From: a virus
Length of the DNA stretch: 64,000 nucleotides
Virus record (IMG/VR): IMGVR_UViG_3300008448_000069
Coordinates: 1-64,000 of that record
Reading direction: 5' to 3' (one strand)
Numbering within the stretch: position 1 is the first letter of the stretch; each line of letters begins with the position of its first letter. Shown piece after piece: positions 30,060-60,289 of the stretch. The notes under the pieces are model-generated. The model made no database searches, was not told where the DNA came from, and saw only the letters and a program-made list of their open reading frames with translations. The position numbers were made by a program, and so were the translations under genes.

Positions 30060-30086
30060 TTATATTTACACCCAAAACCAACCAAC

Positions 30087-30287: not shown

Positions 30288-30288
30288 C

Positions 30289-30477
30289 ATGGCTGAGAAG
30301 TGGATCCAGAAAGCTATCAAGCGTCCAGGTGCATTCACAGCCAAAGCGAAAGCAGCAGGTAAGTCAGTGAGTGCATATGCAAAGAGCGTCCTTAAAGAGG
30401 GTAGCAAGGCAAGCACTCGAACCAAGCGTCAAGCGGCGCTTGCTCAAACATTAGGTAAAATGCGTAAAAAGAAATAA
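30289..30477 (+). CDS. KWIQKAIKRPGA-type small basic phage protein, 62 aa
   Basis: It opens with EKWIQKAIKRPGAFTAKAKA and continues with RTKRQAALAQTLGKMRKKK, a signature seen in many short phage proteins of unknown role. The helical, amphipathic basic composition suggests nucleic-acid or membrane-surface binding. It ends in RKKK and TAA, two bases before the next start. Confidence 0.8.
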   Translation: MAEKWIQKAIKRPGAFTAKAKAAGKSVSAYAKSVLKEGSKASTRTKRQAALAQTLGKMRKKK

Positions 30478-30479
30478 CA

Positions 30480-30755
30480 ATGGCAAGCAACAAATCAAAA
30501 GCAAAAGTCAGTCCTGCTCGCAAGAGCAAAGGATCATCCACTGCAAAGACAGCAGGAACCAGCGTAAAAGCTGTGATGAACACTCGTTCACCCAAGAAGC
30601 CTGTCGCTATCTCTGGTGATACCATGAGTAACTATGCAATGTATGCTAAAGGTGGTACCACCAAAACTAAGCGTTTCGCTGCTTTGGCTCCCCCTTATGA
30701 TAAAGCAACTGCTGCAGATCGTATCGCAGGTGCTAAGAAATCCAAAAAGAAATAA
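30480..30755 (+). CDS. Small Lys/Ser/Ala-rich protein with KKSKKK tail, 91 aa
   Basis: The N-terminal half is low-complexity Lys/Ser/Ala, resembling a histone H1-like or linker-type tail. A middle segment (ISGDTMSNYAMYAKGG) may be the folded part, and the C-terminus is KKSKKK. Function unknown; DNA compaction is a composition-based guess. Confidence 0.75.
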   Translation: MASNKSKAKVSPARKSKGSSTAKTAGTSVKAVMNTRSPKKPVAISGDTMSNYAMYAKGGTTKTKRFAALAPPYDKATAADRIAGAKKSKKK

Positions 30756-30774
30756 TACTAACCAATTAAAAATC
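30751..30774 (+). repeat. Duplicated 5' leader, copy 1
   Basis: A 24-base stretch containing the stop of one gene and the leader of the next is repeated at 31062-31085 with a single C/T difference (core ACTAAYYAATTAAAAATC, where only the first Y of copy 2 versus copy 1 varies). It precedes the ATG at 30782 by 7 bases. Probably a duplicated translation-initiation leader. Confidence 0.6.
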
Positions 30775-30781
30775 TGTATAA

Positions 30782-31066
30782 ATGAAAACTAAAATGAAAA
30801 AATCAGCAGCAGGCACTGCTATAAAAAAAGGAACTAAACTCAAAAAGTTTCAAGATGCTGGTCAACAACTTTTAAAAAAGCCTTCAATGGTAGCAACAGA
30901 TGAGGAAAAGAAGAATTATGAAATCCAAGGTAGGCGTGAAGCGGTAAATAGAATGGGTCAAATGGAGCGATATCGTCAAGAGGGTAAAACTTATCCTTAT
31001 AAAATAAGTGATCTACAACCTAGACTAAAAAAAGGCGGATCCACCAAGAAAAACAAAAATAAATAA
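30782..31066 (+). CDS. Small lysine-rich protein with KKNKNK tail, 94 aa
   Basis: It has a basic N-terminal stretch (KTKMKKSAAGTAIKKGTKLK), a charged helical centre rich in Arg/Glu, and a KKGGSTKKNKNK tail. It starts behind the repeated leader at 30751-30774. AT-rich codon use differs from the preceding small genes. Function unknown. Confidence 0.75.
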   Translation: MKTKMKKSAAGTAIKKGTKLKKFQDAGQQLLKKPSMVATDEEKKNYEIQGRREAVNRMGQMERYRQEGKTYPYKISDLQPRLKKGGSTKKNKNK

Positions 31067-31085
31067 TACTAACTAATTAAAAATC
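31062..31085 (+). repeat. Duplicated 5' leader, copy 2
   Basis: Second copy of the 24-base leader at 30751-30774, one mismatch, placed 6 bases before the ATG at 31092. The duplication of stop plus leader suggests that these small genes spread by local tandem duplication followed by divergence. Confidence 0.6.
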
Positions 31086-31091
31086 AAAACA

Positions 31092-31244
31092 ATGGCAATT
31101 ACAAAACCAAAAAAAGGAATGGGTGGTAACCTAATGGGAAAAGGTGGTACCAAAGGAAAAAACAAAGTCCCCATGAAAGCTGTACCATCCAAGAAAATGG
31201 GTGGCTCTTACAAAAATGCAGGAATGGTTAAAAAAGGAATGTAA
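31092..31244 (+). CDS. Small Gly/Lys/Met-rich protein, 50 aa
   Basis: A 50-residue frame made of Lys, Gly and Met with MGG repeats (GMGGNLMGKGGTKGK near the N-terminus). It starts behind the second copy of the duplicated leader and ends TAA two bases before the next ATG. Low complexity makes homology hard to judge, but position and spacing support a gene. Confidence 0.65.
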   Translation: MAITKPKKGMGGNLMGKGGTKGKNKVPMKAVPSKKMGGSYKNAGMVKKGM

Positions 31245-31246
31245 TC

Positions 31247-31411
31247 ATGAAAAATCCAAAGGCAACAGTGCAGAAGGTTCCAGGTAGTAATGGAACATTC
31301 GTAGGACTGAACAAGAAAGTTTCAGTTCAAACAACTCCAGGTAGCAAGGGTGTCACCCCCAATACCAATCCAAAAGCAAAGGTGATGCCTTGTCATTACG
31401 GCGAGCATTGA
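31247..31411 (+). CDS. Small basic protein, 54 aa, last gene of the late block
   Basis: A 54-residue frame rich in Lys, Pro, Thr and Val with a VPGSNGTFVGLNKKVSV core and a CHYGEH C-terminus containing possible metal ligands (Cys and two His). It begins two bases after the previous stop. A hairpin terminator follows 46 bases downstream. Confidence 0.65.
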   Translation: MKNPKATVQKVPGSNGTFVGLNKKVSVQTTPGSKGVTPNTNPKAKVMPCHYGEH

Positions 31412-31457
31412 TTACTTTTGCAAGTGCGCTTCGTTTGTTTTTTTAGTTAGACTGTTT

Positions 31458-31481
31458 AAGGGTTCTCTTCGGAGGACCCTT
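31458..31481 (+). terminator. UUCG-capped hairpin between convergent blocks
   Basis: A 10-bp stem (one G-U pair) closed by a TTCG tetraloop lies between the plus-strand late block and the minus-strand gene ending at 31480. A T-run (31438-31444) lies just upstream rather than downstream on the plus strand, so it is not a textbook intrinsic terminator, but the position and symmetry suit a bidirectional one. Confidence 0.7.
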
Positions 31482-31725
31482 ATTCGTCTTCAGGAAATCC
31501 GATATCTATCGGAATTATCCATTTGATGGTGTCCATGTCGGAAGTAAAAGTACTTACGTAATCCATTCCATAAGTAGTGGTTCCGGGAACGTTCAGGACG
31601 TCCTCGGGTGAATCCTCTGTCGGTTCCACTTCAAAGACGTCCTCTACGTTATGCAACGACACTTGTACTTTGTCGTTTTCTATTTCCACTCTGAGTATGA
31701 ACTCCATCATTGTTTTCATTGTCAC
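31480..31725 (-). CDS. Small acidic hypothetical protein, 81 aa
   Basis: A GTG start at 31725 overlaps the stop of the upstream gene (GTGA); an ATG two codons later is an alternative. The protein is acidic, with beta-type segments (MEFILRVEIENDKVQVSL) and an acidic C-terminus. It is the last gene of a three-gene minus-strand unit and ends at the bidirectional hairpin. No function recognised. Confidence 0.65.
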   Translation of the reverse strand: MTMKTMMEFILRVEIENDKVQVSLHNVEDVFEVEPTEDSPEDVLNVPGTTTYGMDYVSTFTSDMDTIKWIIPIDIGFPEDE

Positions 31726-32312
31726 ACGAGTCTATTGAATCCTACAAAGGGATTGGCTTGAGGTTTTTCCTCATCATTTTCAGCCTCACACCATGTAGCT
31801 AATGTAGACAATGTACTTCGGTTTTTGTCATCTTTCTTTATAAAATATGCCGCAGTCATGCAGTATCTGTAATCACCGTTCTGGGATTCCAGATATTTAG
31901 CGGTGGCTGACAACACCATCTCCCATGTATAATCAGGATAACTTCTGAAAAACCATAGCATTCTTGGTTCCAAATCTTTCACAGTGCTTCTTACAGGACG
32001 TCCCACATCAACGGTACTTGGAAATAAATTCCTGAATTTCAACAAGTTATCTTTGAAATCAGATGGTATGACTTCTTTGCCACCTTTTGTTTTCACTGGA
32101 TCCAGACGCGCAGCATCCGTAATAACCTTTATGGACTTGTCTGTAAGACTTGACTTATCATCCAGGAATCCCTGAAGCTTTAGTTTATGGATCTCAGTCC
32201 CATAGGCAAGACTGAGATCCATTTCGATTTTGTTTTCAATACAATGGAGAATATAATATCCATTGGGTGTCAGATTGTTATCCCTGAATAGTTGAAATAA
32301 TTCCTTCATCAC
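31722..32312 (-). CDS. Conserved crAss-like protein with winged-helix-like N-terminus, 196 aa
   Basis: The N-terminal about 65 residues (LTPNGYYILHCIENK, then LKLQGFLDD) read like a winged helix-turn-helix. The C-terminal half (FRNLFPSTVDVGRPVRS, then WEMVLSATAKYLES and YCMTAAYFIKK) resembles a conserved region I associate with Bacteroidota phage proteins near replication genes. A role in replication initiation or helicase loading, or as a transcription regulator, is possible. It overlaps the upstream gene by 35 bases. Confidence 0.72.
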   Translation of the reverse strand: MMKELFQLFRDNNLTPNGYYILHCIENKIEMDLSLAYGTEIHKLKLQGFLDDKSSLTDKSIKVITDAARLDPVKTKGGKEVIPSDFKDNLLKFRNLFPSTVDVGRPVRSTVKDLEPRMLWFFRSYPDYTWEMVLSATAKYLESQNGDYRYCMTAAYFIKKDDKNRSTLSTLATWCEAENDEEKPQANPFVGFNRLV

Positions 32313-32745
32313 GTAGGCAGATTAATAGTTTATTGTAGTTACGCACATACTCCTTGTACATGCAGCTTGCATTATGTCTTCTTATGTAATACAGTATGTT
32401 TGAATGATTTATGTTGATCATTCTAGCAAATGATTTTTTTGCAATATCGTAATAAGACAGCAGTATGTTACAAGCTGTGCTGATTACATCTAGAAATTTC
32501 TTGGTCGCTCTTCCGGATTTGTTTTTGTACGGAATCACAGACCAGTCGTTGTTGTATATGAAGTTTGTCCAGGACAGAATCCTCTCAAAGGTCTTCACAA
32601 TCGAAGCCTCGATTTCATCTGTGGGTATTTCTGAAACATAAACCTTCTCGACCTGTGGAAACAGCCTGGCTGTCATCCTCAAGTACCAGTTCCTGAATTC
32701 CTCTTCGGATTGCAAGACTGAATTGGGTACGCAGATATCGTTCAT
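32278..32745 (-). CDS. Protein with DnaA domain IV-like helix-turn-helix, 155 aa
   Basis: Residues about 103-125 (KKSFARMININHSNILYYIR) match the pattern of the DnaA C-terminal DNA-binding helix-turn-helix, where a His-Ser/Thr-x-Ile/Val stretch begins the recognition helix. The rest is helical with no AAA+ motor, so it is not a full DnaA. It may bind the phage origin or act as a regulator. First gene of the minus-strand unit that also holds the winged-helix protein, starting 65 bases from a divergent plus-strand gene. Confidence 0.72.
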   Translation of the reverse strand: MNDICVPNSVLQSEEEFRNWYLRMTARLFPQVEKVYVSEIPTDEIEASIVKTFERILSWTNFIYNNDWSVIPYKNKSGRATKKFLDVISTACNILLSYYDIAKKSFARMININHSNILYYIRRHNASCMYKEYVRNYNKLLICLRDEGIISTIQG

Positions 32746-32810
32746 TTTACTTGTTTTTTTGACCTTTTATGCTTAAATTTTATTGTAATGTATATGTATC
32801 CTGATTAGAA
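32746..32810. promoter_or_regulatory. Divergent intergenic region
   Basis: This 65-base AT-rich gap separates a minus-strand unit (start 32745) from the plus-strand lysis and tailspike unit (start 32811). Both transcripts must start here or upstream. I could not match a full Bacteroidota TTTG / TAnnTTTG promoter in either direction. Confidence 0.45.
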
Positions 32811-33134
32811 ATGAATAACAGCGGTAAGGATCCTGTAATATCCAGGGTCAAGGAGTATATCACTCCAGGGTTGATCACCATACTTGGAATACTTCTTTGG
32901 GCGGAAATATCTGAACTTAAGAGAGATGTGAAAACCCTTCTTGCAAATGACGCCTCTACGCAAACCAAGGTGGACATGCTTGAAAAAGAGATAGACAGAG
33001 TTAGACAAAGTGTTTGCAACACATATAAGAATACGAGTTATGGAGGAAATGAACCCAGCTCCTTGCCAACAAGAGGAGTTGCAAAAAAAGAAGACGATCC
33101 AGAAGTCCCCACTTCGGAAGATTCTATGGCGTAA
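32811..33134 (+). CDS. Membrane-anchored coiled-coil protein of the lysis cassette, 107 aa
   Basis: One transmembrane segment near residues 17-34 (ITPGLITILGILLWAEI) is followed by a charged coiled coil (KRDVKTLLANDAS, then KVDMLEKEIDRVR) and a polar tail. Its 3' end overlaps the next gene by 95 bases in another frame. With the holin-like and spanin-like genes that follow, it probably acts in membrane disruption, perhaps as a holin, antiholin or scaffold. Confidence 0.7.
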   Translation: MNNSGKDPVISRVKEYITPGLITILGILLWAEISELKRDVKTLLANDASTQTKVDMLEKEIDRVRQSVCNTYKNTSYGGNEPSSLPTRGVAKKEDDPEVPTSEDSMA

Positions 33135-33312
33135 TGTAATCAAGTCATTGATTACTACAACGTTAGGTGCAGTAATCATACTTGGTTCATTGTTCTCAGC
33201 GATTGTGATGGAAGGTGGTTGGTCTGACGCCATATGGGGAATAGCTGTTGGATTGGGTTTATTGTTTGCTCCAGATGCGATTCTGACTAAACTTAAGAAC
33301 TTTATACGTTGA
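33040..33312 (+). CDS. Holin-like protein, two transmembrane segments, 90 aa
   Basis: Starting at ATG 33040 gives a basic cytoplasmic N-terminus and two hydrophobic segments (SLITTTLGAVIILGSLFSAI and AIWGIAVGLGLLFAP), ending in a basic tail (LTKLKNFIR), typical of a class II holin. An ATG at 33010 in the same frame would add 10 residues. It would form lesions in the inner membrane that trigger lysis. Its stop overlaps the TTG start of the next gene. Confidence 0.72.
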   Translation: MEEMNPAPCQQEELQKKKTIQKSPLRKILWRNVIKSLITTTLGAVIILGSLFSAIVMEGGWSDAIWGIAVGLGLLFAPDAILTKLKNFIR

Positions 33313-33857
33313 GGGTATTCTTTCTGATATTGTCCATTCTGCTGTTTTCCTGCAACCCTGTCAAAAAGGTGTTGAAGGACCGCAAGATGTTTGAGGAGGT
33401 TGCCAAGGAAGTCGTAAGACAAGGGTACTGTGTCAATGACACCACTGTGGTGACAACCGTTAAAGATACGGTCTATGTGCACACTTCCAGTTCAATAGAC
33501 ACTATATTTGTAGGATCTGATTGTGAAATAGATACTACATTGGAGTCAGGAACCAGGATCAGAGTGGCCGATGGCATGTTGATTATTGATGAGAAAATCT
33601 ACCACAAGACCAGGGAAGTGATCAGGAATGTGGACAGGTACATCCGCGATACCAAGATGGAGGATATCCTCAAAGAGGAGATAGCAGAGCGGGAGAATGA
33701 GATAAGCAATCTACAAGGTATGATCAGTGTCTACCTTGAGAAGATGGAAAAATTAAAAAAAGAGTGTGACAGGTACAAGTGGTATTTCATAGGTATGAGT
33801 GTGCTTGTTACCGTCGTATTTGCAATATCAGTGTTAAGATTCATAAAGATCATTTGA
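33309..33857 (+). CDS. Probable u-spanin (lipoprotein signal plus C-terminal membrane helix), 182 aa
   Basis: The TTG start at 33309 overlaps the stop of the holin-like gene (TTGA). Residues 1-15 form a lipoprotein signal with lipobox LFSC and lipidated Cys15. The middle is beta and coiled coil (EERENEISNLQG-like, then EKMEKLKKECDRYK), and residues about 158-180 form a C-terminal transmembrane helix. One protein anchored in both the outer and inner membrane is the topology of a unimolecular spanin, which fuses the membranes in the last step of lysis of Gram-negative hosts. Assignment is by topology and neighbours, not sequence family. Confidence 0.72.
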   Translation: MRVFFLILSILLFSCNPVKKVLKDRKMFEEVAKEVVRQGYCVNDTTVVTTVKDTVYVHTSSSIDTIFVGSDCEIDTTLESGTRIRVADGMLIIDEKIYHKTREVIRNVDRYIRDTKMEDILKEEIAERENEISNLQGMISVYLEKMEKLKKECDRYKWYFIGMSVLVTVVFAISVLRFIKII

Positions 33858-33858
33858 C

Positions 33859-35052
33859 ATGTCTGTAAACAAATATGTGGCTACAAACGCCACAACTTTC
33901 GTAAATGCCGTTGCAAACACTGCAAATAGCAACATTGACTATACAACCATCAGCATAGAGCAGACCGCAGGTGCTCCAGGTGTTGGAGCCGATGTACTCG
34001 AACTTGCAAGCACCTTGGTAATACCTGATGATTTCACAGGACTATTGACCAAAACCCTCATCATTGATGGTAATGGTGTCACAATACGTCCAAACACTTC
34101 CGCGGGATTTGGAACAGATCAACCTTTGATCAAAAGGAACAGTCCCACTGACAACAAATCATGTTCGATCATCTTCAAGAACATAAACTTCGACTGCAGG
34201 TATTCTGATATGATCTGTGTTCAGTTGTTCAATGCATCAAACGTGGTGTTTGAAAACTGCAGGTTCAACAATGCCAAGAAAGGTTTGATGTTGGCAAACG
34301 TAAACGGAGCATTCATACGCGATTGCAGTGCGAAAGACATAACACTGATCGGATTTGAGACAACAGTCGATCCAGCAGTAGCTAATTTCTTCACCAGATG
34401 CAACAATGTGACATATCAGAATTGTGTGATGACACCTCTTGCAACAGCTGCAACAGGAGCCATAGGTTTCAAATCATTTTATGCTCAGAACATCGCATAC
34501 TATGAGTGCAGGACTCCTGTGGAGATGTTGTACGGGATATACTGTGATTCTGGTGCATCTGCAGGAGTACCGAACGTAGTAAACAACCTTCAAATACGTA
34601 ACTTCAGCGCATTTGGATCTGTGAATCCAACCGCTCTTTTGACAGGAGCTGTCGTTTACATGAGACTTGCCACTGGTTTTGCAAAGATCGATGGTCTATA
34701 CATCACAGGAACAGGAGGAAACTCAACCCCTGGAATGGTTGTTGTTGAAGCAAACGCTCATACTGCAACAGGTTCTCCAAATCCTCATCTATATGTGGAA
34801 AATCTTCCATGGATACCGAACAGTGGAATCTTCAAAACCGAAGGTGGCATACCAGCAGGTGTGAATTGTCCGGTGACACCACTTAGTGATGTGGTTACCT
34901 GGGAGTTCAAGGAAGTCTATGACGGAAGAAACATATTCAATGCATCCAGGTGGTACGGAGGTTTGATTCCCCGTCACCGTTATGCTGAATTCTTTGATGA
35001 CTCGAAAATCATTCTTACAGACTCATTATATCTAAACAACAAATACTTATAA
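33859..35052 (+). CDS. Beta-helix tailspike or fibre protein, 397 aa
   Basis: Repeated short beta rungs (SIIFKNINFDCRYSDMI, VVFENCRFNNAKKGLML, AFIRDCSAKDITLIG) indicate a right-handed parallel beta-helix of the pectate-lyase type, as in phage tailspikes that bind or cleave surface polysaccharide. It ends in a single TAA at 35050-35052; the next gene starts one AAA codon later in the same frame. Readthrough would produce a fused spike of about 1132 residues. No catalytic residues can be assigned by eye. Confidence 0.8.
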   Translation: MSVNKYVATNATTFVNAVANTANSNIDYTTISIEQTAGAPGVGADVLELASTLVIPDDFTGLLTKTLIIDGNGVTIRPNTSAGFGTDQPLIKRNSPTDNKSCSIIFKNINFDCRYSDMICVQLFNASNVVFENCRFNNAKKGLMLANVNGAFIRDCSAKDITLIGFETTVDPAVANFFTRCNNVTYQNCVMTPLATAATGAIGFKSFYAQNIAYYECRTPVEMLYGIYCDSGASAGVPNVVNNLQIRNFSAFGSVNPTALLTGAVVYMRLATGFAKIDGLYITGTGGNSTPGMVVVEANAHTATGSPNPHLYVENLPWIPNSGIFKTEGGIPAGVNCPVTPLSDVVTWEFKEVYDGRNIFNASRWYGGLIPRHRYAEFFDDSKIILTDSLYLNNKYL

Positions 35053-35055
35053 AAA

Positions 35056-37257
35056 ATGGCATTCTACAATAATTTCTGGGCGTTACAAAACGTCACAACC
35101 TATGCGTCACATGTAATAGGTTCATTTGATAGCAACACCACCACCGGTGGCGGTATCTTCCGCTGGGTAGGAGGTGTGAACAACTCAACAATCACCAATA
35201 TTCCAGGTATTAGAATCAAGCCGATCAACAGCAGCACTGGATATTGGATTCGTGTGTTTGATGGACCTTTGAACGTATCCTGGTTCGGTTGTCAAAATGA
35301 AGGAACTGTTCCTCCAAACACCTTCGCACAACTTGGAGTGAACCAAGCAACACTTGACAGCAGATATGGAACAGGTTTTGCCACTACAAGTGATAACTAT
35401 GATACCACTGCGATCAGGTATGCTATGAAGTTAGTTCAGGATACCGTCAATAATCTGGTAGTTTCCTGGACAGGTCCAATCACTTCTGTGGTTTTAGAAC
35501 CCAAGAGTTACTGGTTGACAAGAACTGTTGAACTTCCTGTTCCCACTTCTTCGTATGGTGAAGGTTTCCTTTCAATTGACGGCAATGGTGCCTACATCAG
35601 AAAAGCGAATACCAACCAGTTTGATTTCTTCAATAGGTACTTTGTTGATCAATCAAGTGCAAACAGCAGCAAGGACTACCAAATCATATTCAAGAACTTT
35701 TCAGCAAAAGGAATCGGTGGAGTCTGGCAAGGAAGCGGATACTCATTTTTAACGCTAGGTGCGACAACCAACAGCATGATTGAAAACATCACGCTGTCCA
35801 GTTTTGACATCGGTATACGTCTTGAATGGTGTGAAAGTGTGAAAGTGAGCAAAATAAACATCAGTGATGTTGAAACATGCGGTATCCTTGCCAAGGAAGG
35901 CGGATGGACAGGTTCAAGTCCTGCAACAGGATGTGACAATATTGTCATTGATCAGGTTACTGCGGTCAGCGCAAGCATTGCTCCCAATGTCGCATATGTG
36001 AAGGTTTTGAATTGCAACAACGCACTGATTCAAAACACATCCATAAATTCAATAAATGTTACTCTGGAAGAAGGTATCATTGTAGATAGTTCTCCGATAA
36101 CAAGTCCTTTGGAAAACAGAGCTTGCAAGATCGTAAATACGATGTTCACCAAGAGCGGTTCATTTGTAGGATGGAACAAATCCCTCATATCCATCTATGC
36201 GCGCGATAATGTGAGATACATTGTTGATACGATATATTGCAACACTGCGTCATCTTTCGGATTCAATCAGGGATTGATCAATGCGGAACAGTATACACCA
36301 TCCATTGTCGGACAAGTTCCTACAATTGAATTGAACAACATCTATTTCTCATCCAGCTATCCGACTACTCCGACACTTCCCCTCGCTACAAACACTCTTG
36401 CGCGTTTCAGAAATGTTGGAGACATCAACTGGCATTTCAGGACAGTTGATTTTGGTAATGATCCAGCTGTGGATGCTGCAGCGATCATCAATCCTTTGAG
36501 TTACATTTGGGCAAGTGCCGCTCCTGCAACCATTCCTTTGGCTGCAAACATCATTTACGAATCCACACTTGATCCATGCTGTGGAATCCAGCAGGTTCTT
36601 GATACCAGCAAGTCAATCGCAAATGGATTGTTGTTCATTGGAACAGATGCAGGTGAGTCCAATACTGGTGCAAATGACGTAATTGGACTGGGTACTGATG
36701 CTGCAGGTGTGAACTCTGGAATCGATGTTGTTGCACTTGGTAACAGTGCAGCATTGAACAACACAGGTAGTGATGTAGTGGCAATCGGTAACAACGCACT
36801 ATCAGGTAACACTGCAAGTGATGCGATTGCCATTGGTGAAACCGCAGGTCAGAACCAGACAGGTGCTGACGCCACACTCATTGGACAAGGTGCGGGTTTC
36901 AACAACTCAGGAGTCGATGTTGTCGCAATAGGTAAAAGCGCAGGTAATGCGAACACTGGAGACAAGCTTCATGCCGTAGGTGTATTAGCTGGAGCTGGAA
37001 ACACTGGTGATTATGTGGTTGCACTTGGTTCAGGTGCTGCACAAGTCAACACTGCGAATTATGTGATAGCTTTAGGTAACGCTGTAGGTGCAAACAATAA
37101 TATTCCAAACTCCACAATCATCTCCAATGACTGTCTTCCAAGTTATTTGAACTATGCTGCAGCCGCAGCTGTGATTGTGGCACCTGGAGCAACTACAGGA
37201 ACTTACCTGTATCATGATCAGACCACCAATTCAATAGGTGCTGTAAGAATACCCTGA
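35056..37257 (+). CDS. Tailspike/fibre with beta-helix and YadA-head-like repeats, 733 aa
   Basis: The N-terminal 130 residues include LNVSWFGC and YDTTAIRYAMKL, the usual entry to pectate-lyase-superfamily spike domains. Residues about 180-500 are beta-helix rungs. Residues 524-682 are about ten copies of a roughly 16-residue repeat of the form NTGxDVVAIGNxA, resembling the beta-roll head repeats of YadA-type trimeric adhesins. A short C-terminal domain may be the trimerisation or receptor-binding tip. The product is expected at the tail tip, binding the host envelope. It ends in TGA before a strong terminator. Confidence 0.85.
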   Translation: MAFYNNFWALQNVTTYASHVIGSFDSNTTTGGGIFRWVGGVNNSTITNIPGIRIKPINSSTGYWIRVFDGPLNVSWFGCQNEGTVPPNTFAQLGVNQATLDSRYGTGFATTSDNYDTTAIRYAMKLVQDTVNNLVVSWTGPITSVVLEPKSYWLTRTVELPVPTSSYGEGFLSIDGNGAYIRKANTNQFDFFNRYFVDQSSANSSKDYQIIFKNFSAKGIGGVWQGSGYSFLTLGATTNSMIENITLSSFDIGIRLEWCESVKVSKINISDVETCGILAKEGGWTGSSPATGCDNIVIDQVTAVSASIAPNVAYVKVLNCNNALIQNTSINSINVTLEEGIIVDSSPITSPLENRACKIVNTMFTKSGSFVGWNKSLISIYARDNVRYIVDTIYCNTASSFGFNQGLINAEQYTPSIVGQVPTIELNNIYFSSSYPTTPTLPLATNTLARFRNVGDINWHFRTVDFGNDPAVDAAAIINPLSYIWASAAPATIPLAANIIYESTLDPCCGIQQVLDTSKSIANGLLFIGTDAGESNTGANDVIGLGTDAAGVNSGIDVVALGNSAALNNTGSDVVAIGNNALSGNTASDAIAIGETAGQNQTGADATLIGQGAGFNNSGVDVVAIGKSAGNANTGDKLHAVGVLAGAGNTGDYVVALGSGAAQVNTANYVIALGNAVGANNNIPNSTIISNDCLPSYLNYAAAAAVIVAPGATTGTYLYHDQTTNSIGAVRIP
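36625..37110 (+). repeat. Coding repeat of about 16 residues (YadA-head-like)
   Basis: About ten diverged copies of a unit encoding NTGxDVVAIGNxAxxx lie in the C-terminal part of the second spike gene. The repeats are clear in protein but only moderately similar in DNA, so they are old. Such repeats build left-handed beta-rolls and set fibre length. Confidence 0.8.
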
Positions 37258-37283
37258 TTGTTTGGGTTGTTTGTTTGGAGTTA

Positions 37284-37314
37284 CCCCCGCAGTTGGTTTG
37301 GCTGCGGGGGTTTC
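37284..37314 (+). terminator. Intrinsic terminator after the spike genes
   Basis: A perfect 9-bp GC-rich stem (CCCCCGCAG with CTGCGGGGG) and a 9-base loop are followed by TTT and a T-rich stretch. It ends the plus-strand lysis/spike unit and lies 5 bases beyond the 3' end of the convergent minus-strand gene, so it may also stop that transcript. Confidence 0.88.
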
Positions 37315-37318
37315 CATT

Positions 37319-37654
37319 TTAGAAGATGGGGACTCCTCTTTTCTTCTGCATTGCGATCTTCAGGTGTACGAGATATCCTATCAGATCATTTATACTGTCT
37401 TCAGTATCGTTGTTTATACCGACATTCTGTATCCTGCGAAGCTTGTCGTTTATCCTTGACTGGATTCCTATGACAGGATCCACGTCGAAAAGCGGACCCG
37501 ATTGATGTACGGAATCACCATACTTCATGTTCTTGTCCAAAAGCATGGCTTTCAGGTCGTCACAGACCTTGATGATCAATTCGGTTGTCGATTCAGTAAC
37601 GCTTTCCATGTAGTCTTTCCCTTGTGGTGTTATAACGTATTTTGTTTTTGACAT
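37319..37654 (-). CDS. DUF1599-like nucleotide-metabolism-associated protein, 111 aa
   Basis: The motif LLDKNMKYGDSV, a DKLRRIQN segment and the C-terminal EDSINDLIGYLVHLKIA match the small family usually called DUF1599 or nucleotide modification associated domain 1. Members lie near nucleotide-metabolism genes, here next to a MazG-like enzyme. I chose the ATG at 37654, which overlaps the MazG-like gene by 62 bases; an ATG at 37609 with a purine-rich stretch upstream is an alternative. Confidence 0.75.
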   Translation of the reverse strand: MSKTKYVITPQGKDYMESVTESTTELIIKVCDDLKAMLLDKNMKYGDSVHQSGPLFDVDPVIGIQSRINDKLRRIQNVGINNDTEDSINDLIGYLVHLKIAMQKKRGVPIF

Positions 37655-37973
37655 GCCAGTCAATGTCGATATGCAAACCCCCGCAGATGTCCATGATCCT
37701 GATCAAGGCGTCCGCCATCTCGTCTGCAAAGGTGTCTTTGGCAACAAGTACAAAGTGCTCCTTGAACTCCTCGTCACTCATCTCAGCCATCGCTTCCTTT
37801 ATCTCATTGCTTATCGGTATGATTGATCCGTCCTTGCGATGTGTCTCCATCGCTTCTGATAACTCGGTTACAACCAACATCAGCATCTCTCCAAGATTGC
37901 GGTCATTGTCCCAGAATCCTTTTCTTCTAGCGGTGAGATGTATTACATCCCTTAAGTCATTCAGCTTTGACAT
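37593..37973 (-). CDS. MazG-like nucleotide pyrophosphohydrolase, 126 aa
   Basis: An all-alpha MazG/NTP-PPase pattern is visible: ExxE in TELSEAMETH and ExxD in FADEMADALIRIMD give the four acidic Mg-binding residues, followed by the typical C-terminal helix ending NTTRERLHGKRY. It would hydrolyse nucleoside triphosphates or alarmone-like nucleotides to monophosphate and pyrophosphate, shaping the nucleotide pool during replication. Its 3' end overlaps the DUF1599-like gene. Confidence 0.83.
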   Translation of the reverse strand: MSKLNDLRDVIHLTARRKGFWDNDRNLGEMLMLVVTELSEAMETHRKDGSIIPISNEIKEAMAEMSDEEFKEHFVLVAKDTFADEMADALIRIMDICGGLHIDIDWHVKNKIRYNTTRERLHGKRY

Positions 37974-37984
37974 GTCTTTTTGTT

Positions 37985-38179
37985 TTACGTGAAACTTATT
38001 ATATCAGAGAAACTATCGTAATCTCCCCATTCTTCCTCGGGAAGATAACCTTTGAAATATTCGTGCGTCTTTTTATTATACAACAGCACCAGAAGTTCCT
38101 CCAGTGCTGTTGTATCGTTGTAGTTACATATGTCATCGGTGATTTGTTCAACCACTCGATCAATAATTGTCTTGCTCAT
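37985..38179 (-). CDS. Small acidic hypothetical protein, 64 aa
   Basis: An acidic helical protein (VVEQITDDICNYND, then LPEEEWGDYDSF). Its ATG overlaps the stop of the DNA polymerase gene by 4 bases, so it is translationally coupled. No family recognised. Confidence 0.7.
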   Translation of the reverse strand: MSKTIIDRVVEQITDDICNYNDTTALEELLVLLYNKKTHEYFKGYLPEEEWGDYDSFSDIISFT

Positions 38180-40101
38180 TGGAATAATGATGTTTGTGCC
38201 TGTGATGCTTTTGTTCCCTCAATATTAGCTATTTCCTGATAAATCTGGTCAAGATAGTACCTTTTATCAATGCGGTATTTTTCAAACGGCTGCTCCAAAT
38301 GACGGTTGAATACGGTCTGAAGCCAGTGTCCTGACTCCAATTGGATTTCCCGTCCGTCAGGGTTACATTTGAACAGTTTGACACCGTTCTCGGATATGTA
38401 ATACCTGACCAGTTTCTGGAGTTTCTCCTCTTTGTATTCGCCGTTAAGGATATGCCGCTGTACAAAGTACCATTCACCCCTGATTTTGGCACCTCCGCAG
38501 TAATCGAATATGTTCTGGTTGCTTTCCAGGTAGTCTTCAGGTTTTACCCCGTTGACAAAATATTCGTATAACGCCTTGGAAACCACTAGGAAACTCTTGT
38601 TCTTATGCAACGCAAGGTCTTTCCATTCAAACCTGCCTTTGCATTTGGGTTCCTTTCCTTTTCCATACACGGCGATATAGTTGTTGACGTCTGCGATGAT
38701 CATCTTCTCATAGGTGTCGCATTCCAGCTGGAGACTGGTGAGAGTCTCCCACTCTTTACACACTCTTTCAAAGACCTCTTGGTCCTTTTTGCACATTCGA
38801 AACTCCAATCCGTCGGTATTTTGCATAATCGGTTGTGCATCTGGGATCGCCAGCATCACCATTTCGTACAACTTGCTCAACAGAAGCTGACCATTGACAG
38901 TGATCCTGAAGGTAAGCTCAGGGTCATACAGGAAACTATGCTTGTTCTTGCTCAGACCATAGGTTGAATTCAGGATAATCTTGAACAGGTAGTTCAGCGG
39001 GTCCTTCTTGCTATACTTCTTACGTTCCTCAAAGAACCATTCATACAACTCACAGAACTGTTCCTGAGGTATGTGCGCAGGAGACCAACCGTTGCGGATA
39101 GCCAGGTTCGGATAGAAACTAGTGACGTCTGCCGTTACTATTACATGAGTTTCGTCGCTTTTGTAGATGCCAGGCTTGGTACAACCATGAATACCACCCA
39201 GAGCATAGACAGTATCCACACCATATGTTTTCATGATATGCTGTGGACCTTTCATCTTACCTTCGGTGATCTTGATGTTCATTTTCTTGAACCAGCAGAG
39301 CATGTTTACAAACGGGGGTGTGGTGAATTCAATGTAAGGAAGTATTAACTCATTGACATTCACGCTGTCACGAACTGTCCTCAGTCCTTTTATGGACTTC
39401 TTGTCCGTTCCCAACTTCTCACTGAGGAAGTGGATGAACATCTCCTTGCTGATACGCGGTTCACTGGCTGAATACAGATTGAGTCCATATTCCTTGCTCA
39501 GTTTTGCACGAAGCTTTATCTGTTTCTTCATGTCATCTTGCAGGAATATCGCCTTTGTACTGGATACGTCATTGATACAATAAGCAATCACCTTGTTCAA
39601 TGCATCCATTCCATTGACAGGTTTGTAGTGCGGATGAGGCATCTCCTCGACATTGTACCAGTCCATGCTGTACTGAACCCACTTGAGTCCGCATTTCTTC
39701 GCTTCACTGTCCCAGTGATTAAGCTTGAATATGTCCACTTGTGGCATGCTCAACTTCCACTCAGGATAGTCACTGAAATCCCCGCTATTGGATTTTTCAA
39801 TTGTCTTCTGGGCGTATGCATAAATGAATCCAGCAACCTCTTCCGCTGATTTTCCCTTCAGGGTGCTTCTATTGCGCATGATATGCTCAATAATCTGAGC
39901 GTCAAATGCGATGTTGTTGAATCCGAACATCCATGTCTTGTTCTTTTTGCATTGATCCAAAAAGACAAGAAATTCATCCAGATCATTCTTAAGAGGATGG
40001 ATCACAAACACCTTTCTTTCGGTTCCAGCATAAGACTCGAAGACCCCGATGAAACAATTCATCAGGGTCTCCAGGTCATACACCCAGTGTTTTACATTCA
40101 T
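38176..40101 (-). CDS. Family B DNA polymerase with 3'-5' exonuclease
   Basis: A 641-residue replicative polymerase. Exonuclease motifs: D9/E11 (VYDLET), NNIAFD at 62-67 with D67, and YCIND at 174-178. Polymerase motifs: motif A D325 in ADVTSFYPNL, motif B K374-xxx-N378-STYG, and motif C NTDG at 428-431, in which D430 is kept but the usual first Asp of DTD is Asn. It would copy the phage genome with proofreading. Family B polymerases occur in part of the crAss-like group. It is short for the family but all core motifs are present. Confidence 0.93.
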   Translation of the reverse strand: MNVKHWVYDLETLMNCFIGVFESYAGTERKVFVIHPLKNDLDEFLVFLDQCKKNKTWMFGFNNIAFDAQIIEHIMRNRSTLKGKSAEEVAGFIYAYAQKTIEKSNSGDFSDYPEWKLSMPQVDIFKLNHWDSEAKKCGLKWVQYSMDWYNVEEMPHPHYKPVNGMDALNKVIAYCINDVSSTKAIFLQDDMKKQIKLRAKLSKEYGLNLYSASEPRISKEMFIHFLSEKLGTDKKSIKGLRTVRDSVNVNELILPYIEFTTPPFVNMLCWFKKMNIKITEGKMKGPQHIMKTYGVDTVYALGGIHGCTKPGIYKSDETHVIVTADVTSFYPNLAIRNGWSPAHIPQEQFCELYEWFFEERKKYSKKDPLNYLFKIILNSTYGLSKNKHSFLYDPELTFRITVNGQLLLSKLYEMVMLAIPDAQPIMQNTDGLEFRMCKKDQEVFERVCKEWETLTSLQLECDTYEKMIIADVNNYIAVYGKGKEPKCKGRFEWKDLALHKNKSFLVVSKALYEYFVNGVKPEDYLESNQNIFDYCGGAKIRGEWYFVQRHILNGEYKEEKLQKLVRYYISENGVKLFKCNPDGREIQLESGHWLQTVFNRHLEQPFEKYRIDKRYYLDQIYQEIANIEGTKASQAQTSLFQ

Positions 40102-49500: not shown

Positions 49501-50154
49501 CTATTTTTTGTAATAATCTTCAGATACGTATTGGTAATGTCCAATGATCTCGTAATCAAAGAGACAATCGTCCAATATCTGACCGGATCCCACATTGTGA
49601 ACCATCATCCATTCGGCACCTACAAGGTTGTTTGTCTTCACATTGGATACGATTCCTATGTGGGTTGTTCCACCACCAAGCGTCCAACATACGATATCTC
49701 CTGGAACAAAATCCTCTGGATTGGGATCTTCTGTCAAATCACTCTGTATAGTACCATGTCTCTCAAAGAATTTCATCAGATTACGAACCCTCCTATGATC
49801 AATATTCGGATCAGGTTTGGTAAGACCCCAATGATTAGGATACTCGTCAAATTCATAAAACATGTCATCATGCACCAGTTTCTGGAGATCGATCCCTAGT
49901 TTTCTGTATGCTCGTATTACAACATCTGCGCATACCCCTTTGTCTGCGGGTACATCGCCGTTTGGATAAGGTATTTTGAAATATGACGCGTCATAAGTGA
50001 CGTCATCCTTTGTAAGGTGAACTGCTGCTTGAGCAAGAGTACCTCCAAAACCTTCGATTTTAATTGGTCTTTTACCGGATGCACTACTACCGTTACATCC
50101 ATAAGACAATACGACCGCAGCTACTGCGGCAATCATTAAACTCCTTATTTTCAT
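49501..50154 (-). CDS. DUF1287-type cysteine cell-wall hydrolase lipoprotein, 217 aa
   Basis: The ATG at 50154 gives a lipoprotein signal with lipobox LSYGC (Cys20). Residues 71-98 (DKGVCADVVIRAYRKLG, then DLQKLVHDDM) with C75 and H165 in THIGIVSN match the DUF1287 family, an NlpC/P60-like fold. It would cut peptidoglycan peptides in the periplasm, anchored to the outer membrane. It may be the phage endolysin, a penetration aid or a cell-wall modifying enzyme. It is encoded away from the holin cassette, next to the tRNA gene. Confidence 0.85.
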   Translation of the reverse strand: MKIRSLMIAAVAAVVLSYGCNGSSASGKRPIKIEGFGGTLAQAAVHLTKDDVTYDASYFKIPYPNGDVPADKGVCADVVIRAYRKLGIDLQKLVHDDMFYEFDEYPNHWGLTKPDPNIDHRRVRNLMKFFERHGTIQSDLTEDPNPEDFVPGDIVCWTLGGGTTHIGIVSNVKTNNLVGAEWMMVHNVGSGQILDDCLFDYEIIGHYQYVSEDYYKK

Positions 50155-50169
50155 TGTTTTGTTATTTAG

Positions 50170-50240
50170 TAACCAGTGGGGGAGTCGAACCCCCATGCTG
50201 ATCCATAAAGGAACAGTGTTGCCATTTACATCAACTGGTT
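50170..50240 (-). tRNA. tRNA with apparent UUA anticodon (ochre-reading)
   Basis: A cloverleaf fits: 7-bp acceptor stem AACCAGT/ACTGGTT, D-arm with ATGT/ACAC and GG in the loop, a perfect 5-bp GGGGG/CCCCC T-stem with TTCGACT loop, discriminator A and no encoded CCA. The anticodon loop is CTTTATG (50204-50210), giving U33 and anticodon UUA, which reads the stop codon UAA. The anticodon stem has one T-T mismatch, position 26 is missing and position 37 is U instead of a purine, so the gene may be degenerate or specialised. It sits alone in a 96-base gap. Identity of the charged amino acid cannot be read. Confidence 0.6.
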
Positions 50241-50960: not shown

Positions 50961-51362
50961 TTATTCTTCCACAGTCCATAAAAAGTAATACTTATTGGTG
51001 TCCGTCGTCTGTCTCAGAGTGCATAGGAACACAGCACCATTATTATAGAATCTCCAGGTGCTGTTGTCTACGATCACATACCTGTTGTTGTACCGTTCAA
51101 TCATGCCTTGCAGTTCTCCAACTGTCAAAGGACATATGCTTGTGAACACGGAACGATTCTCCTCATCGAAGAAATACATGACTCTGATGTCATCCTCCGC
51201 GAATGTCATTATCATCTTGTCCTTGCGTTCACCCCATTTCTCATACTCCCAGTCGAAGTTGGGCCATTTGTCCCTTATCTGAGAGGGAGTGTATCCAAAC
51301 AGGGGTTGTGACATCGACACCCCTGGTAATAGCAATAATAGGAATAGTAATATCTTTTTCAT
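50961..51362 (-). CDS. Exported protein of unknown function, 133 aa
   Basis: Starting at ATG 51362 gives a cleavable signal peptide (KKILLFLLLLLPGVSMSQ) followed by a mature domain with a Trp/Tyr-rich beta pattern (IRDKWPNFDWEYEKWGERKD). It overlaps the glycosyltransferase gene by 4 bases. A phage protein exported to the host periplasm could act in superinfection exclusion; that is a guess. Confidence 0.72.
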   Translation of the reverse strand: MKKILLFLLLLLPGVSMSQPLFGYTPSQIRDKWPNFDWEYEKWGERKDKMIMTFAEDDIRVMYFFDEENRSVFTSICPLTVGELQGMIERYNNRYVIVDNSTWRFYNNGAVFLCTLRQTTDTNKYYFLWTVEE

Positions 51363-52000
51363 TTTCTGTTTTTTAAGTCCAATATCATATTGCATAGTTC
51401 GCCTTGAACGCTGCAGTTCTTTGATTCAGTACCATGTATTGTCTTCCTGGGATCAAGAGTCTCTTGGTATCTTATCCATGTACGTTTATGGGATGCGATC
51501 ATTATCCTCTTCTTCTGTCTTGCAGCCTCCAAGGAAAACACCACATCCGACATCTTCTTGTACTGTGAAAGATATATGTCCACAGGGTTGAAGTAATCAG
51601 TCCTGAACGCTGTGACACCAGTGCCAGCGACATCTATCTCCACATCATAACCAATGTCCTGATTCCATCTGTAAGGCTTGTGACCTGTGTAATAGTTCCT
51701 GTTCTTTCCCAGCAGCTTGCGACCATGATATGTTATGATGCATCCAGTCCTTTCAATCGCCTTGATTGATCTGGATACATAATCGCTGGGATACATCAAA
51801 TCATCATCGCAGCTGAAATAATAGATGGGTTCCTTGTAGTCCTTCAGAAAGCTGAACTTTCCATTGTCTGTAAGATCAATCTCTTCCTTTCCATTGTCAT
51901 AGACATGGACATGGTCACACTGTCCTTTCAGACTGTTCACAGCATCTGGAAGAATATCCTCTCTTCCAGGCATTGTGGCTATTCCTGCAACAATCAGCAT
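51359..52000 (-). CDS. GT-A glycosyltransferase, 213 aa
   Basis: A small GT2-like domain: IVAGIATMPGRED at the N-terminus, then FSCDDDLMYP (DXD-type metal and nucleotide-sugar site) and a VFSLEAARQKKR helix. It would transfer a sugar from a nucleotide donor to an unknown acceptor. It overlaps the methyltransferase-like gene by 7 bases, forming a cassette with a second glycosyltransferase. Confidence 0.82.
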   Translation of the reverse strand: MLIVAGIATMPGREDILPDAVNSLKGQCDHVHVYDNGKEEIDLTDNGKFSFLKDYKEPIYYFSCDDDLMYPSDYVSRSIKAIERTGCIITYHGRKLLGKNRNYYTGHKPYRWNQDIGYDVEIDVAGTGVTAFRTDYFNPVDIYLSQYKKMSDVVFSLEAARQKKRIMIASHKRTWIRYQETLDPRKTIHGTESKNCSVQGELCNMILDLKNRK

Positions 52001-57010: not shown

Positions 57011-58849
57011 TTACAATATCACTTTCTCCTTTATCAGGGAATTTATCTTTTTCTTCAGGAAGCTCACAAACATGGTGGGAAACGTGGAAATGTCATCCAT
57101 GTCAACCACATTCTTGAACATATCCTTGCTGCGGTATCCACCAATGGTGACCTGTACAACCTGGAATCCCATCTTCTCAATCTCATTGGCCATCCTGCGT
57201 ACATGTGTCCTGGCAGCTTCTCCGCGATACGCTATGGCGGATGGTGAACCGTCACTGATGATGATGAACACACCATGGTTGGATGTCCTTGCGCGTACAC
57301 GCTTTGCTGCAGCCATCATAGCAACACCATCGCGATTCTCGGATCTTGCGCTTATACCACCAAGTGCGATATCATTGTTGACACCAGGCTCCTTGTATAC
57401 AAGCAACTGTGTACGATTACTACCACCAGCACCTAAATCTGATTCATAATAATCCGCAGTATGACCATAGATGAACAACTCCACGTCAGGTACACCTTTC
57501 ATCGCCTCATTGAGGAATATGGCAGCCTCGCGTGCAGCTGTCTCACCTGAACCACTCATTGAACCTGATTCATCAACCAGGATGCTTACGCATAACTTGT
57601 CAGTCTTTACAGAACCCATGCGTTCATAGATGTTAGGTACCATCTGCTTTGCTTCTGCAAGCTTGTTGGTATCCAATCTACCTGTACGCATTGATTTGAG
57701 GGAGAATTGATAATCCCTGTTCTTGCGCTTAAGCAGGTTAGCTATTACATTGGCTTTCAATCGGTCAATCTTTGCAATTGCACGCTGGTATCTGCTTTTG
57801 GCGTATGAGGTCACAGGCATGATGCAATAGTCCACCTTACCCATGTGTTCCTTGGTGGAACCAGTGGATTCAGAGTGTTTCATCTCCTCGATGAATTCGT
57901 TGAACACTTTGGTGTCGCTGCTGTCAGTTTCTTTCATGGATTCGCGAAGTTTTTCCAGAAACTTTTTCAATGACTCCTGTGTCTTTTTAGGAGGTGTCTT
58001 GTCATCTCCATCTGTTGCTTTGGAATCATCCATACCTATGCTTTCACCTCCATCAGGTCCATCATCTCCTCCTTCTCCAGAAGGTGGAGGGGGTGGTTCC
58101 TCATCAAACTTGATGTATTCCTGCAGTACCTTGGTGATTTTGGTAGCCATTTTCTTGCATGCTCCATGTTCAACAGGTATCCCTTCAGACTTGTCAATGA
58201 TGTCTTTGACCTTCTCCAAAGGTTCCTTGAATTCCTCCATCTCCTCTTCGGTGATCTGTTCCGGATATCTGATGATCCTGTCAAACAATTCAAGCAACCT
58301 TTGATTGGAATCTTCTGCATCCGCTTCTGGACGATCCTTGTACTTGTGTATCTTGTATTTGGATACGAACTTCAGATAACCTGGAGTCTCATCAGCCATC
58401 AGCTTGTTCACACGCTCCTCATTAAGGATGTTGTACACTGTCTTTGAAAGTTTATCTGCACCTGTCTTGGCGTAAATCCTTTCCTCTTGCGTCTGGTGCA
58501 TGAACTTCGCGATGTTCTGAAGAGAGGCACCGATGAACAGATCCATATCCAATCCTGATGCAAGCATGTCTGTTGGAATGTGTATCTTCTTGCTGTCCAT
58601 TGACAAGTGGGAGAAATGATCGCTGTTTGTACCCATCACACGGGACATTGTGAGCAGCAGACTCGCTGAATCCTGGGTGTTGACCTTCTTTGTAGAACCG
58701 TTCTTCTTACCGAAGAAGAAGTCACTGTATGTGTCATAACCCTTCTCCCAGTGCATGGTGCGTTTGGTTGGATCATACGATGTGTAACCATAATCAGCAT
58801 CACGGCTGAACCAGTCATAATAATCAAATCCTATCTTCTTTTTCGCCAT
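57011..58849 (-). CDS. CobT-like VWA-domain protein, 612 aa
   Basis: The ATG at 58849 (MAKKKIGFDYYDW) is preferred to a TTG five codons upstream. The N-terminal part is helical and its only visible landmark is a conserved-looking LNEERVNKLM segment. Residues about 265-310 form a Pro/Gly/Asp/Glu-rich linker (EEPPPPPSGEGGDDG). The C-terminal von Willebrand A domain has the MIDAS motif DESGSMS with D426, S428 and S430, plus IIISDGSPS. This is the layout of CobT, the chelatase subunit that works with the CobS AAA+ ATPase. The pair probably forms a MoxR/VWA remodelling complex rather than a cobaltochelatase, since no CobN is present. Confidence 0.87.
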   Translation of the reverse strand: MAKKKIGFDYYDWFSRDADYGYTSYDPTKRTMHWEKGYDTYSDFFFGKKNGSTKKVNTQDSASLLLTMSRVMGTNSDHFSHLSMDSKKIHIPTDMLASGLDMDLFIGASLQNIAKFMHQTQEERIYAKTGADKLSKTVYNILNEERVNKLMADETPGYLKFVSKYKIHKYKDRPEADAEDSNQRLLELFDRIIRYPEQITEEEMEEFKEPLEKVKDIIDKSEGIPVEHGACKKMATKITKVLQEYIKFDEEPPPPPSGEGGDDGPDGGESIGMDDSKATDGDDKTPPKKTQESLKKFLEKLRESMKETDSSDTKVFNEFIEEMKHSESTGSTKEHMGKVDYCIMPVTSYAKSRYQRAIAKIDRLKANVIANLLKRKNRDYQFSLKSMRTGRLDTNKLAEAKQMVPNIYERMGSVKTDKLCVSILVDESGSMSGSGETAAREAAIFLNEAMKGVPDVELFIYGHTADYYESDLGAGGSNRTQLLVYKEPGVNNDIALGGISARSENRDGVAMMAAAKRVRARTSNHGVFIIISDGSPSAIAYRGEAARTHVRRMANEIEKMGFQVVQVTIGGYRSKDMFKNVVDMDDISTFPTMFVSFLKKKINSLIKEKVIL

Positions 58850-58850
58850 C

Positions 58851-59027
58851 TTATCGAGTATCAAATGTTATTATCAATCTTACGGAAGGATCCAACTCCC
58901 GTAGCTTTTGTTCAAACTCAACAACCATTTCCTCAAGGTCATATACCTTGAGGCCATGGTCATTGATATGAAAGTAAGTACCTACGGTGATCACACCGTA
59001 CTCGCTGTCATCAAATTCCTCTTTCAT
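58851..59027 (-). CDS. Small protein between MoxR and VWA genes, 58 aa
   Basis: A 58-residue frame from ATG 59027 to TAA 58851 fills the gap exactly: the start shares one base with the MoxR stop, and the stop ends one base before the VWA start. It is acidic with a short beta hairpin (YGVITVGTYFHINDHGLKVY) and a helix. This tight nesting supports a real linker gene of the module. Confidence 0.75.
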   Translation of the reverse strand: MKEEFDDSEYGVITVGTYFHINDHGLKVYDLEEMVVEFEQKLRELDPSVRLIITFDTR

Positions 59028-60289
59028 CAGTTGGCTGCGATAATGGATTTGACTTTGGTACGCTCGGATACGCCGGATGCGTCATCAAACAAAGGCATTA
59101 CAACCTTCATCAGCGCACCCACGGTGTCGAAACCGTCCTTGATAAGACTGGCTGCAAGCAGAGTATGACGCACAGACACCACATTGGACAACTCCTGCTC
59201 CTTGAACTGCTCGCGGATGGTCTTGGATACCTTGACAATAGCCTTTGCGGTCTTGTTGTCGATACCGGTGCGGATCATCAGGATCTTGGTCTCTGCCGCC
59301 TCGCTTGGATAACTCAACTCCACAGGCATGAAGCGATCGAGCAACGCACGGTCGATCTGCGTGGTACCTGAATACTCGGAACCGAGATTCGCAGTGGCAA
59401 AGAACACACAGTTCTCGTGTACAGGTACCGAACGCAAACCTTCAGCGCTTGCAACGTCGATAGGCAGATATCTACGCTTGTCAAGACACGGAAATAGAAT
59501 ATTGGCTGCACTCAATGGAGCACGATTCAACTCGTCTAGAAGGACAATACCTTCCTGTTGTACGTGACTTACAAAGGGTGCGTAATCGAAATCCGAGTGA
59601 CCTTCCTTGTTCAGACGGTGAACACCCAGCAACGCTGATTGCGCATCCTGAACGGTACCCATGTCCTGTATGCTAAGGTGTTTACCCATCGCTTTGGTGA
59701 TATGGCTGACAAGTTCTGTCTTACCTGAACCAGTGGGACCGATCAACAGGGTATTCTCACCACGCATGATGTTGCGTACCAGCAGATACCATACATCCTC
59801 TTCCACGTGGAATCCGATTTCAGACTCCTTAGGACAAGGATGCTGGCGGATGATGCGGTCACGCAATGTACCTGAAGTATCTTCAGTGAACTCCTTGCAT
59901 TTGGCTTCCACGTCCACCGCATAACCTGCTTCCATGAACATTGTGGCATACTTGCGTGCACCTTCACAACGGTATTCGGATGAGGCAATCATGTAATCCA
60001 TCAGATATTCGATGTCTGCGTTAGTGGGGGTATTCTCGGCAGCGAGACTTGTTACATAAATCTGATCTTCGTAAAACAACGGGCGTACGGAACCCACGAT
60101 CTTGGATGACAATTCACCCCAGGATATGTCACTTACGATGAAGCAAGTTCCGATGGGGAATTTGGTGAAATAAGCGGCGTTTCCTTCAAGCTTGCTGTCA
60201 ACGCAAGTCACTGGAATCTCGCTCTTTTGGTCTTTTAGACATTTGATTGTGAACTGGGTGCCTTCCAAGGCGGTCTTAACTAAATACAT
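59027..60289 (-). CDS. MoxR/CobS-like AAA+ ATPase, 420 aa
   Basis: Walker A GPTGSGKT at 184-191, Walker B IVLLDELN with D252 and E253, sensor 1 N301 (FATANLG) and Arg320 as arginine finger (LLDRF) define a MoxR-type AAA+ ring ATPase. The N-terminal 160 residues are a separate alpha/beta domain. It would remodel a target protein using ATP, with the CobT-like VWA protein as adaptor. Target unknown; such pairs occur in several large phages. Confidence 0.9.
   Translation of the reverse strand: MYLVKTALEGTQFTIKCLKDQKSEIPVTCVDSKLEGNAAYFTKFPIGTCFIVSDISWGELSSKIVGSVRPLFYEDQIYVTSLAAENTPTNADIEYLMDYMIASSEYRCEGARKYATMFMEAGYAVDVEAKCKEFTEDTSGTLRDRIIRQHPCPKESEIGFHVEEDVWYLLVRNIMRGENTLLIGPTGSGKTELVSHITKAMGKHLSIQDMGTVQDAQSALLGVHRLNKEGHSDFDYAPFVSHVQQEGIVLLDELNRAPLSAANILFPCLDKRRYLPIDVASAEGLRSVPVHENCVFFATANLGSEYSGTTQIDRALLDRFMPVELSYPSEAAETKILMIRTGIDNKTAKAIVKVSKTIREQFKEQELSNVVSVRHTLLAASLIKDGFDTVGALMKVVMPLFDDASGVSERTKVKSIIAAN

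Follow-up and report, generated by a model that had tools for sequence, protein, structure and literature searches.

Several phage lineages have been described that carry a tRNA reading a stop codon without a matching change in their genetic code; the accounts given here follow the accessible parts of the cited papers. In the Lak megaphages a TAA-suppressor (TTA) tRNA occurs in 51 of 51 genomes, which otherwise give no sign of TAA recoding (PMC8346664). In the alpha crAss-like phage OKSC01000115, a tRNA-Gln (TTG) has become a Sup-TTA tRNA while TAA has not been reassigned (PMC7886860), and Zeta crAss-like phages retain non-functioning CTA suppressor tRNAs, for which the authors propose an effect on host defence (PMC12386605). 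TAA recoding itself was not found in a large set of jumbo phages, according to the accessible part of that report (PMC13037316). Phage tRNAs with changes in the anticodon loop have, in addition, been described as evading host nucleases (PMC10264068).

The tRNA considered here lies in the window, i.e. the whole 64,000-nucleotide stretch of DNA that was analysed, which comprises positions 1–64000 of a virus record of 67131 bases. The Lak phages, which are phages of Bacteroidetes, share with the window phage a UUA anticodon without UAA recoding, but their loops are ordinary (CTTTAAA in Lak-C1 and TTTTAAA in Lak-A1, from two records), as opposed to CUUUAUG in the window; moreover, they recode TAG and carry many tRNAs, whereas the window phage, with its single tRNA, recodes no codon. 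The tRNA of OKSC01000115 is, by its description, comparable in reading UAA without reassignment, but it arose by a point mutation in one genome within a block of sense tRNAs, while ours is a lone tRNA present in three phage records (that of the window and those of two further copies, L120 and L472) with a conserved, odd loop. The Zeta tRNAs are alike in being stop-reading and kept across diverged phages without recoding, but read UAG rather than UAA. The nuclease-evading tRNAs also have an altered anticodon loop, but are sense tRNAs that replace host ones, whereas the window tRNA pairs with a stop codon, matches no sense codon and does not fit the replacement of a cut host sense tRNA. Its loop was not met in the searched literature on UAA tRNAs of phages, as far as the accessible text of those papers extends. 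Phage tRNAs of this orphan, stop-reading kind were known before; the novelty lies in the recurrence of this loop variant in different phages.

The reading that we tentatively prefer is that of a selected, UAA-pairing tRNA in a non-recoding phage, which is likely to be a weak (attenuated) reader of UAA. Such a tRNA would be made during infection and charged; its decoding of UAA would be weak, given U37, G38, a possible C32–G38 pair and a stem mismatch; and it would cause low readthrough of a small number of messages, from phage or host, leaving the many UAA-ended phage genes unharmed and presumably bringing the phage some benefit.

The tRNA gene and its setting

The first-pass annotation had read a UUA anticodon at this locus, and ARAGORN agrees, calling a tRNA-Stop(tta) at 50169–50240 on the minus strand with the anticodon placed as in Table 1. 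A local search with Rfam RF00005 gives a full-length match (model positions 1–71) at 35.9 bits and an E-value of 7.2e-6, above the curated cut-off of 29 bits; the match is a modest one, because a fast Rfam run over the whole window did not list the tRNA. The gene is 71 nt long including the discriminator A, and CCA is not encoded. RNAfold gives −24.9 kcal/mol with a z-score of −2.68, and 2 of 200 shuffles folded as well.

Table 1. Positions of the tRNA, its anticodon loop and its neighbouring genes in the window
Feature	Coordinates	Strand	Basis
tRNA gene, UUA anticodon	50170..50240	minus	ARAGORN, Rfam RF00005, L120 identity, L472 covariation
Anticodon loop CUUUAUG (positions 32–38)	50204..50210	minus	Identical in L120 and L472
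Anticodon UUA (TTA in DNA)	50206..50208	minus	ARAGORN
DUF1287 protein, 217 aa, weak CHAP match	49501..50154	minus	Pfam PF06940, 205.9 bits; downstream of tRNA
Calcineurin-like phosphoesterase, 242 aa	50251..50979	minus	Pfam PF00149, PHROGs; upstream of tRNA

The cloverleaf consists of the acceptor stem AACCAGT/ACTGGTT, the D arm ATGT-AAATGGCA-ACAC, the anticodon arm TGTTC-CTTTATG-GATCA, a variable loop of 4 nt (GCAT) and the T arm GGGGG-TTCGACT-CCCCC. The tertiary pairs U8–A14 and A15–U48 are hallmarks of tRNAs; both are present, together with G18G19 and the TTC loop, and this fold counts in favour of weak UAA reading. The canonical fold that had been claimed for the locus holds for the cloverleaf, the D-loop GG and the T arm, but has to be qualified for the mismatches A10·C25 and U29·U41, the absence of nucleotide 26, the variable loop of only 4 nt and, above all, U37 with its neighbour G38. 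The weak Rfam score and the mismatches would also suit a relic, i.e. a former sense tRNA now without function, its anticodon having drifted to UUA; the conservation described below makes this very improbable. One genuine tRNA gene is present at 50170–50240. An anticodon register shifted to UAU was rejected on the sequence itself, since the anticodon stem then fails. According to ARAGORN, neither the window nor the final 3.1 kb of the record contains a second tRNA or a tmRNA, and a tmRNA remnant was dismissed on the lack of a tmRNA call in the window and of an Rfam tmRNA match in 29300–38200.

Both neighbouring genes, for the phosphoesterase and the DUF1287 protein, are encoded on the same strand as the tRNA. 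Used as a query, the 2.5-kb neighbourhood of the tRNA was unmatched in the phage collection, and an origin from a bacterial genome was rejected, the single GTDB match being a tRNA-Ala in a cluster of 24 tRNAs and not a homologue. A second record, G001 (79319 b), is nearly the same as the window record over their common 58.7 kb (99.98% over 57,539 bases and 100% over 1,169 bases). The window phage has genes for a DNA polymerase A, Sak4-like and DnaB-like proteins, a primase and a uracil-DNA glycosylase, as well as giant ORFs (1656, 3860 and 2271 aa, within 4158–27548); TerL, portal and capsid genes were not identified among the proteins scanned. CrAss-like records are among the 100 phage records found with the uracil-DNA glycosylase protein, at less than 60% identity, and the gene content suggests that the window phage may be crAss-like. 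CobT-like and CobS/AAA ATPase-like genes, which are common to relatives, lie adjacent at 57011–60289.

Conservation of the tRNA and its absence from close relatives

L120 (IMGVR_UViG_3300043449_001948) comes from a diverged relative of the window phage that carries the same tRNA. Identity over ten compared genes is 70.1% for protein, 68.4% for DNA and 37.6% for fourfold sites (n=620), a saturated divergence across which 70 of 70 nucleotides of the tRNA body are kept. Divergence begins right at the ends of the tRNA, which in L120 lies between a 147-aa ORF upstream and a helicase gene downstream, with no phosphoesterase or DUF1287 gene there. That the body is kept although flanks and neighbours differ favours weak UAA reading and stands against a relic. 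In both phages the frame of the downstream gene extends without a stop into the 3′ half of the tRNA, and this overlap contains an ATG (49501–50196 in the window, 8957–10129 in L120). A stretch of 127 nt about 1.1 kb from the tRNA (L120:10775–10901, window 51354–51480) is 99% identical between phages otherwise about 70% alike, and shows what was probably a recent exchange near the tRNA. The tRNA body may recently have passed by itself between L120 and the lineage of the window, which would weaken the argument that L120 provides against a relic.

A third copy, L472, was obtained from an unlimited scan with the loop left free (GTAAATGGYAACA...GGTTCRANTC), which returned 10 stretches. Its record (G043, 33.9 kb) matches one of the 47 window-record proteins, at 34% identity, and the tRNA, which scores 42.6 bits, is directly upstream of the terminase large subunit gene. 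It differs from the window tRNA at 16 of 71 positions, of which four are in the acceptor stem and none in the D or T stems; the anticodon stem has changed at eight of its ten positions and the anticodon loop at none of its seven. Four pairs (1–72, 2–71, 30–40 and 31–39) are altered on both sides, the two acceptor pairs in a compensatory manner, a number reached by 4 of 500 shuffles in a comparison of three sequences only. The changes are mixed, in that 27–43 becomes U·U while U29·U41 becomes C–G. Stems that covary around a constant loop support weak UAA reading and count against a relic, and decay is unlikely because the tRNA is kept in L120 while in L472 the stems covary with the loop unchanged. 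The proposal of the first-pass annotation that selection maintains the fold is borne out by these two copies. The discriminator base, one of the identity elements on which many charging systems rely (PMC9976931, accessible part), is A in the window and L472 but U in L120; this variation argues against one conserved amino acid, counts against weak UAA reading, and would be in keeping with a non-decoding RNA.

Three close relatives (G002, G003 and G004), whose helicase is about 70% identical to that of the window, lack the tRNA from the matching interval in the parts covered by these fragments; from the helicase to the next conserved gene they have about 1.3 kb, compared with 6.6 kb in the window. 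This absence fits a relic. The single weak match of G003 to the tRNA model, at 14.5 bits, lies inside a tmRNA. A tmRNA with the tag GNESTFTFEDAMNFVSIDELVAA is predicted downstream of the DNA polymerase gene in L009 (18355–18659), from a phage closely related to that of the window. A lone tRNA-Met(cat) is found at about 1501–1572 in L056, L057 and L058 (records G019, G005 and G017; polymerase identity 58%), with an A1·A72 mismatch, an initiator-like feature, and in two of these three a tmRNA is called nearby (tags ANMNKVFSLLGEEVAVAA and ANMNKVFSLIREEVAVAA).

UAA codons in the window phage

Of the 47 ORFs that reach 100 aa, 17 end in UAA, large ones among them, 24 in UGA and six in UAG, and coding density, which is 0.962 with the standard code, gains nothing when UAA is treated as sense (0.960). 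Reassignment was rejected on these grounds: UAA is not recoded in the window phage, as had been argued when the standard code was read from its genes, and the anticodon is complementary to a stop codon that does not serve as sense inside them.

In the tRNA-bearing phages UGA stops are slightly favoured at the expense of UAA, which would be consistent with weak UAA reading. UAA ends 22 of 61 ORFs in the window and L120 together, as compared with 40 of 71 in three close relatives that lack the tRNA (p 0.024; for UGA, p 0.11). With G043 included, the UGA share is 45 of 90, whereas in phage contigs of GC 0.38–0.45, a background whose counts were rebuilt from rounded fractions, it is about 34% (p 0.003; for UAA, p 0.048). 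The shift is, however, nominal, confounded by GC and inside the spread of ordinary contigs, of which 10 of 61 have a UAA fraction of 0.36 or less and 11 of 61 a UGA fraction of 0.5 or more, and avoidance of UAA was rejected as an explanation. UAA ends 14 of 29 ORFs in G043. UAA is the commonest stop in two other phages that have this loop (40/60 in G046 and 9/14 in G045), which counts against weak UAA reading; the first of them, whose copy is L226, shows this among its ORFs of 100 aa or more while carrying a tRNA array with two UUA-anticodon tRNAs. Nor are backup stops enriched, the next in-frame stop lying a median of 13 codons after UAA and seven after UGA, which again speaks against weak UAA reading.

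A partial or timed suppression of the phage’s own genes had been suggested. The two giant ORFs of 1656 and 3860 aa lie in the same frame, with TAA and directly after it ATG at 9126–9131, and in G030, a distant relative, they appear as a single ORF of 5148 aa, so that programmed suppression might, for example, fuse them; in all, five of 31 UAA genes in the window record continue in frame into the next gene. In the covered parts of eight relatives without the tRNA, the same is true of 36 of 393 junctions, with a range from 0/21 in G004 to 14/76 in G022 (G019 8/78, G017 5/55, G005 5/75, G030 2/49, G003 1/25, G002 1/14), and Fisher’s test gives p 0.21 when only the window is compared, and 0.07 once the 2/5 of L120 are added. 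The two giant genes are, moreover, separate in G022, G005 and G017, and the coding densities given above offer no help to this explanation, which we regard as improbable. Readthrough at the giant-ORF junction and others (three tight in-frame UAA junctions) was set aside, as the controls from the relatives weaken it. With many UAA-ended genes, no extra backup stops and junctions not significantly commoner, the suggestion found no clear support.

The CUUUAUG loop and possible roles

The loop departs from the ordinary form in having U37 instead of a purine, followed by G38, with C32 and G38 able to pair; RNAfold closes this pair in both the window and L472 tRNAs. Both U37 and G38 are ill suited to decoding, which weighs against weak UAA reading. 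As a background we used 1462 ARAGORN tRNAs from the fetched loci, out of 1615 distinct ones, after removal of those matching the loop patterns or lacking a three-letter anticodon. Base 37 is A in 1208 of these, G in 218, T in 26 and C in 10; many of the 36 with a pyrimidine are Asp(gtc) with the loop CTGTCTA or TTGTCTA. C32 occurs together with G38 in 15. Stop anticodons number two tta and five cta, and the rarity that had been ascribed to UAA-reading tRNAs holds in this sample.

An unlimited scan for compact tRNAs with CTTTA fixed, bases 37–38 free and an AATGG D loop gave 57 stretches, six of them called tta by ARAGORN and 33 not tRNAs, the remainder being other isotypes. Bases 37–38 are TG in five of the six (the window record, L120, L472, L226 and L228) and AG in one (L505), and C32–G38 is present in all six. 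This recurrence, set against the background frequency, and the RNAfold closure argue for a tRNA-shaped RNA that does not decode, in which C32–G38 closes a five-base loop UUUAU with another role; it might, for example, be bait for a host nuclease that cuts anticodons, a substitute resistant to such a nuclease, or an operon processing signal. The independent events are fewer than six, because the window record, L120 and L472 are one family, and in this confirmed family the anticodon bases, which were not selected for, are always UUA; both points tell against a non-decoding role. A tRNA-like stretch, L478:4310–4376, has the matching D arm and a 13-nt anticodon arm, CCCC-UAUAU-GGGG, and is not called as a tRNA by ARAGORN or Rfam; it would favour a non-decoding role, but its kinship is unsure because its D arm also occurs in a tRNA-Ala. 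The adjoining phosphoesterase likewise weakly matches a PHROG annotated as RNA ligase, which would suit such a role, but is not beside the tRNA in L120. Taken together, a non-decoding RNA is in our view possible but doubtful, and weak UAA reading remains our tentative choice.

Scans by loop sequence place the family among other UUA tRNAs. With CTTTATG there were at least eight tta calls (six distinct sequences) among the 119 matches listed, and with CTTTARA at least 13 among the 121 listed, from which it follows that UUA tRNAs with ordinary loops are also found in many phages; a control scan with CTTTAYH had no tta call among the 121 matches listed, 74 of which were tRNA-Val. The idea that all CTTTATG tRNAs form one family was abandoned, as L132/L168/L211, L188/L218, L191, L226 and L228 had been chosen by their loop and are lookalikes only. 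Between L132 and L188, an unrelated pair, two stem positions co-vary in the register that places UUA at 34–36, while ARAGORN switches between tta and tat (L188 being called tat).

There may be a phage-mobile class of UUA tRNAs with the fixed loop C-UUUAU-G that does not recode phage genes and that would act through deliberately weak UAA reading of host messages or a non-decoding use, e.g. as nuclease bait; we put this forward as a conjecture rather than an expectation. Stop-reading tRNAs in standard-code phages have been reported but are unexplained. The window offers a case in which such a tRNA is under strong selection without any recoding, with its anticodon loop held fixed in a form that is seemingly bad for decoding, and so makes testable the question of whether it serves the phage by weak decoding of UAA or in some other way.
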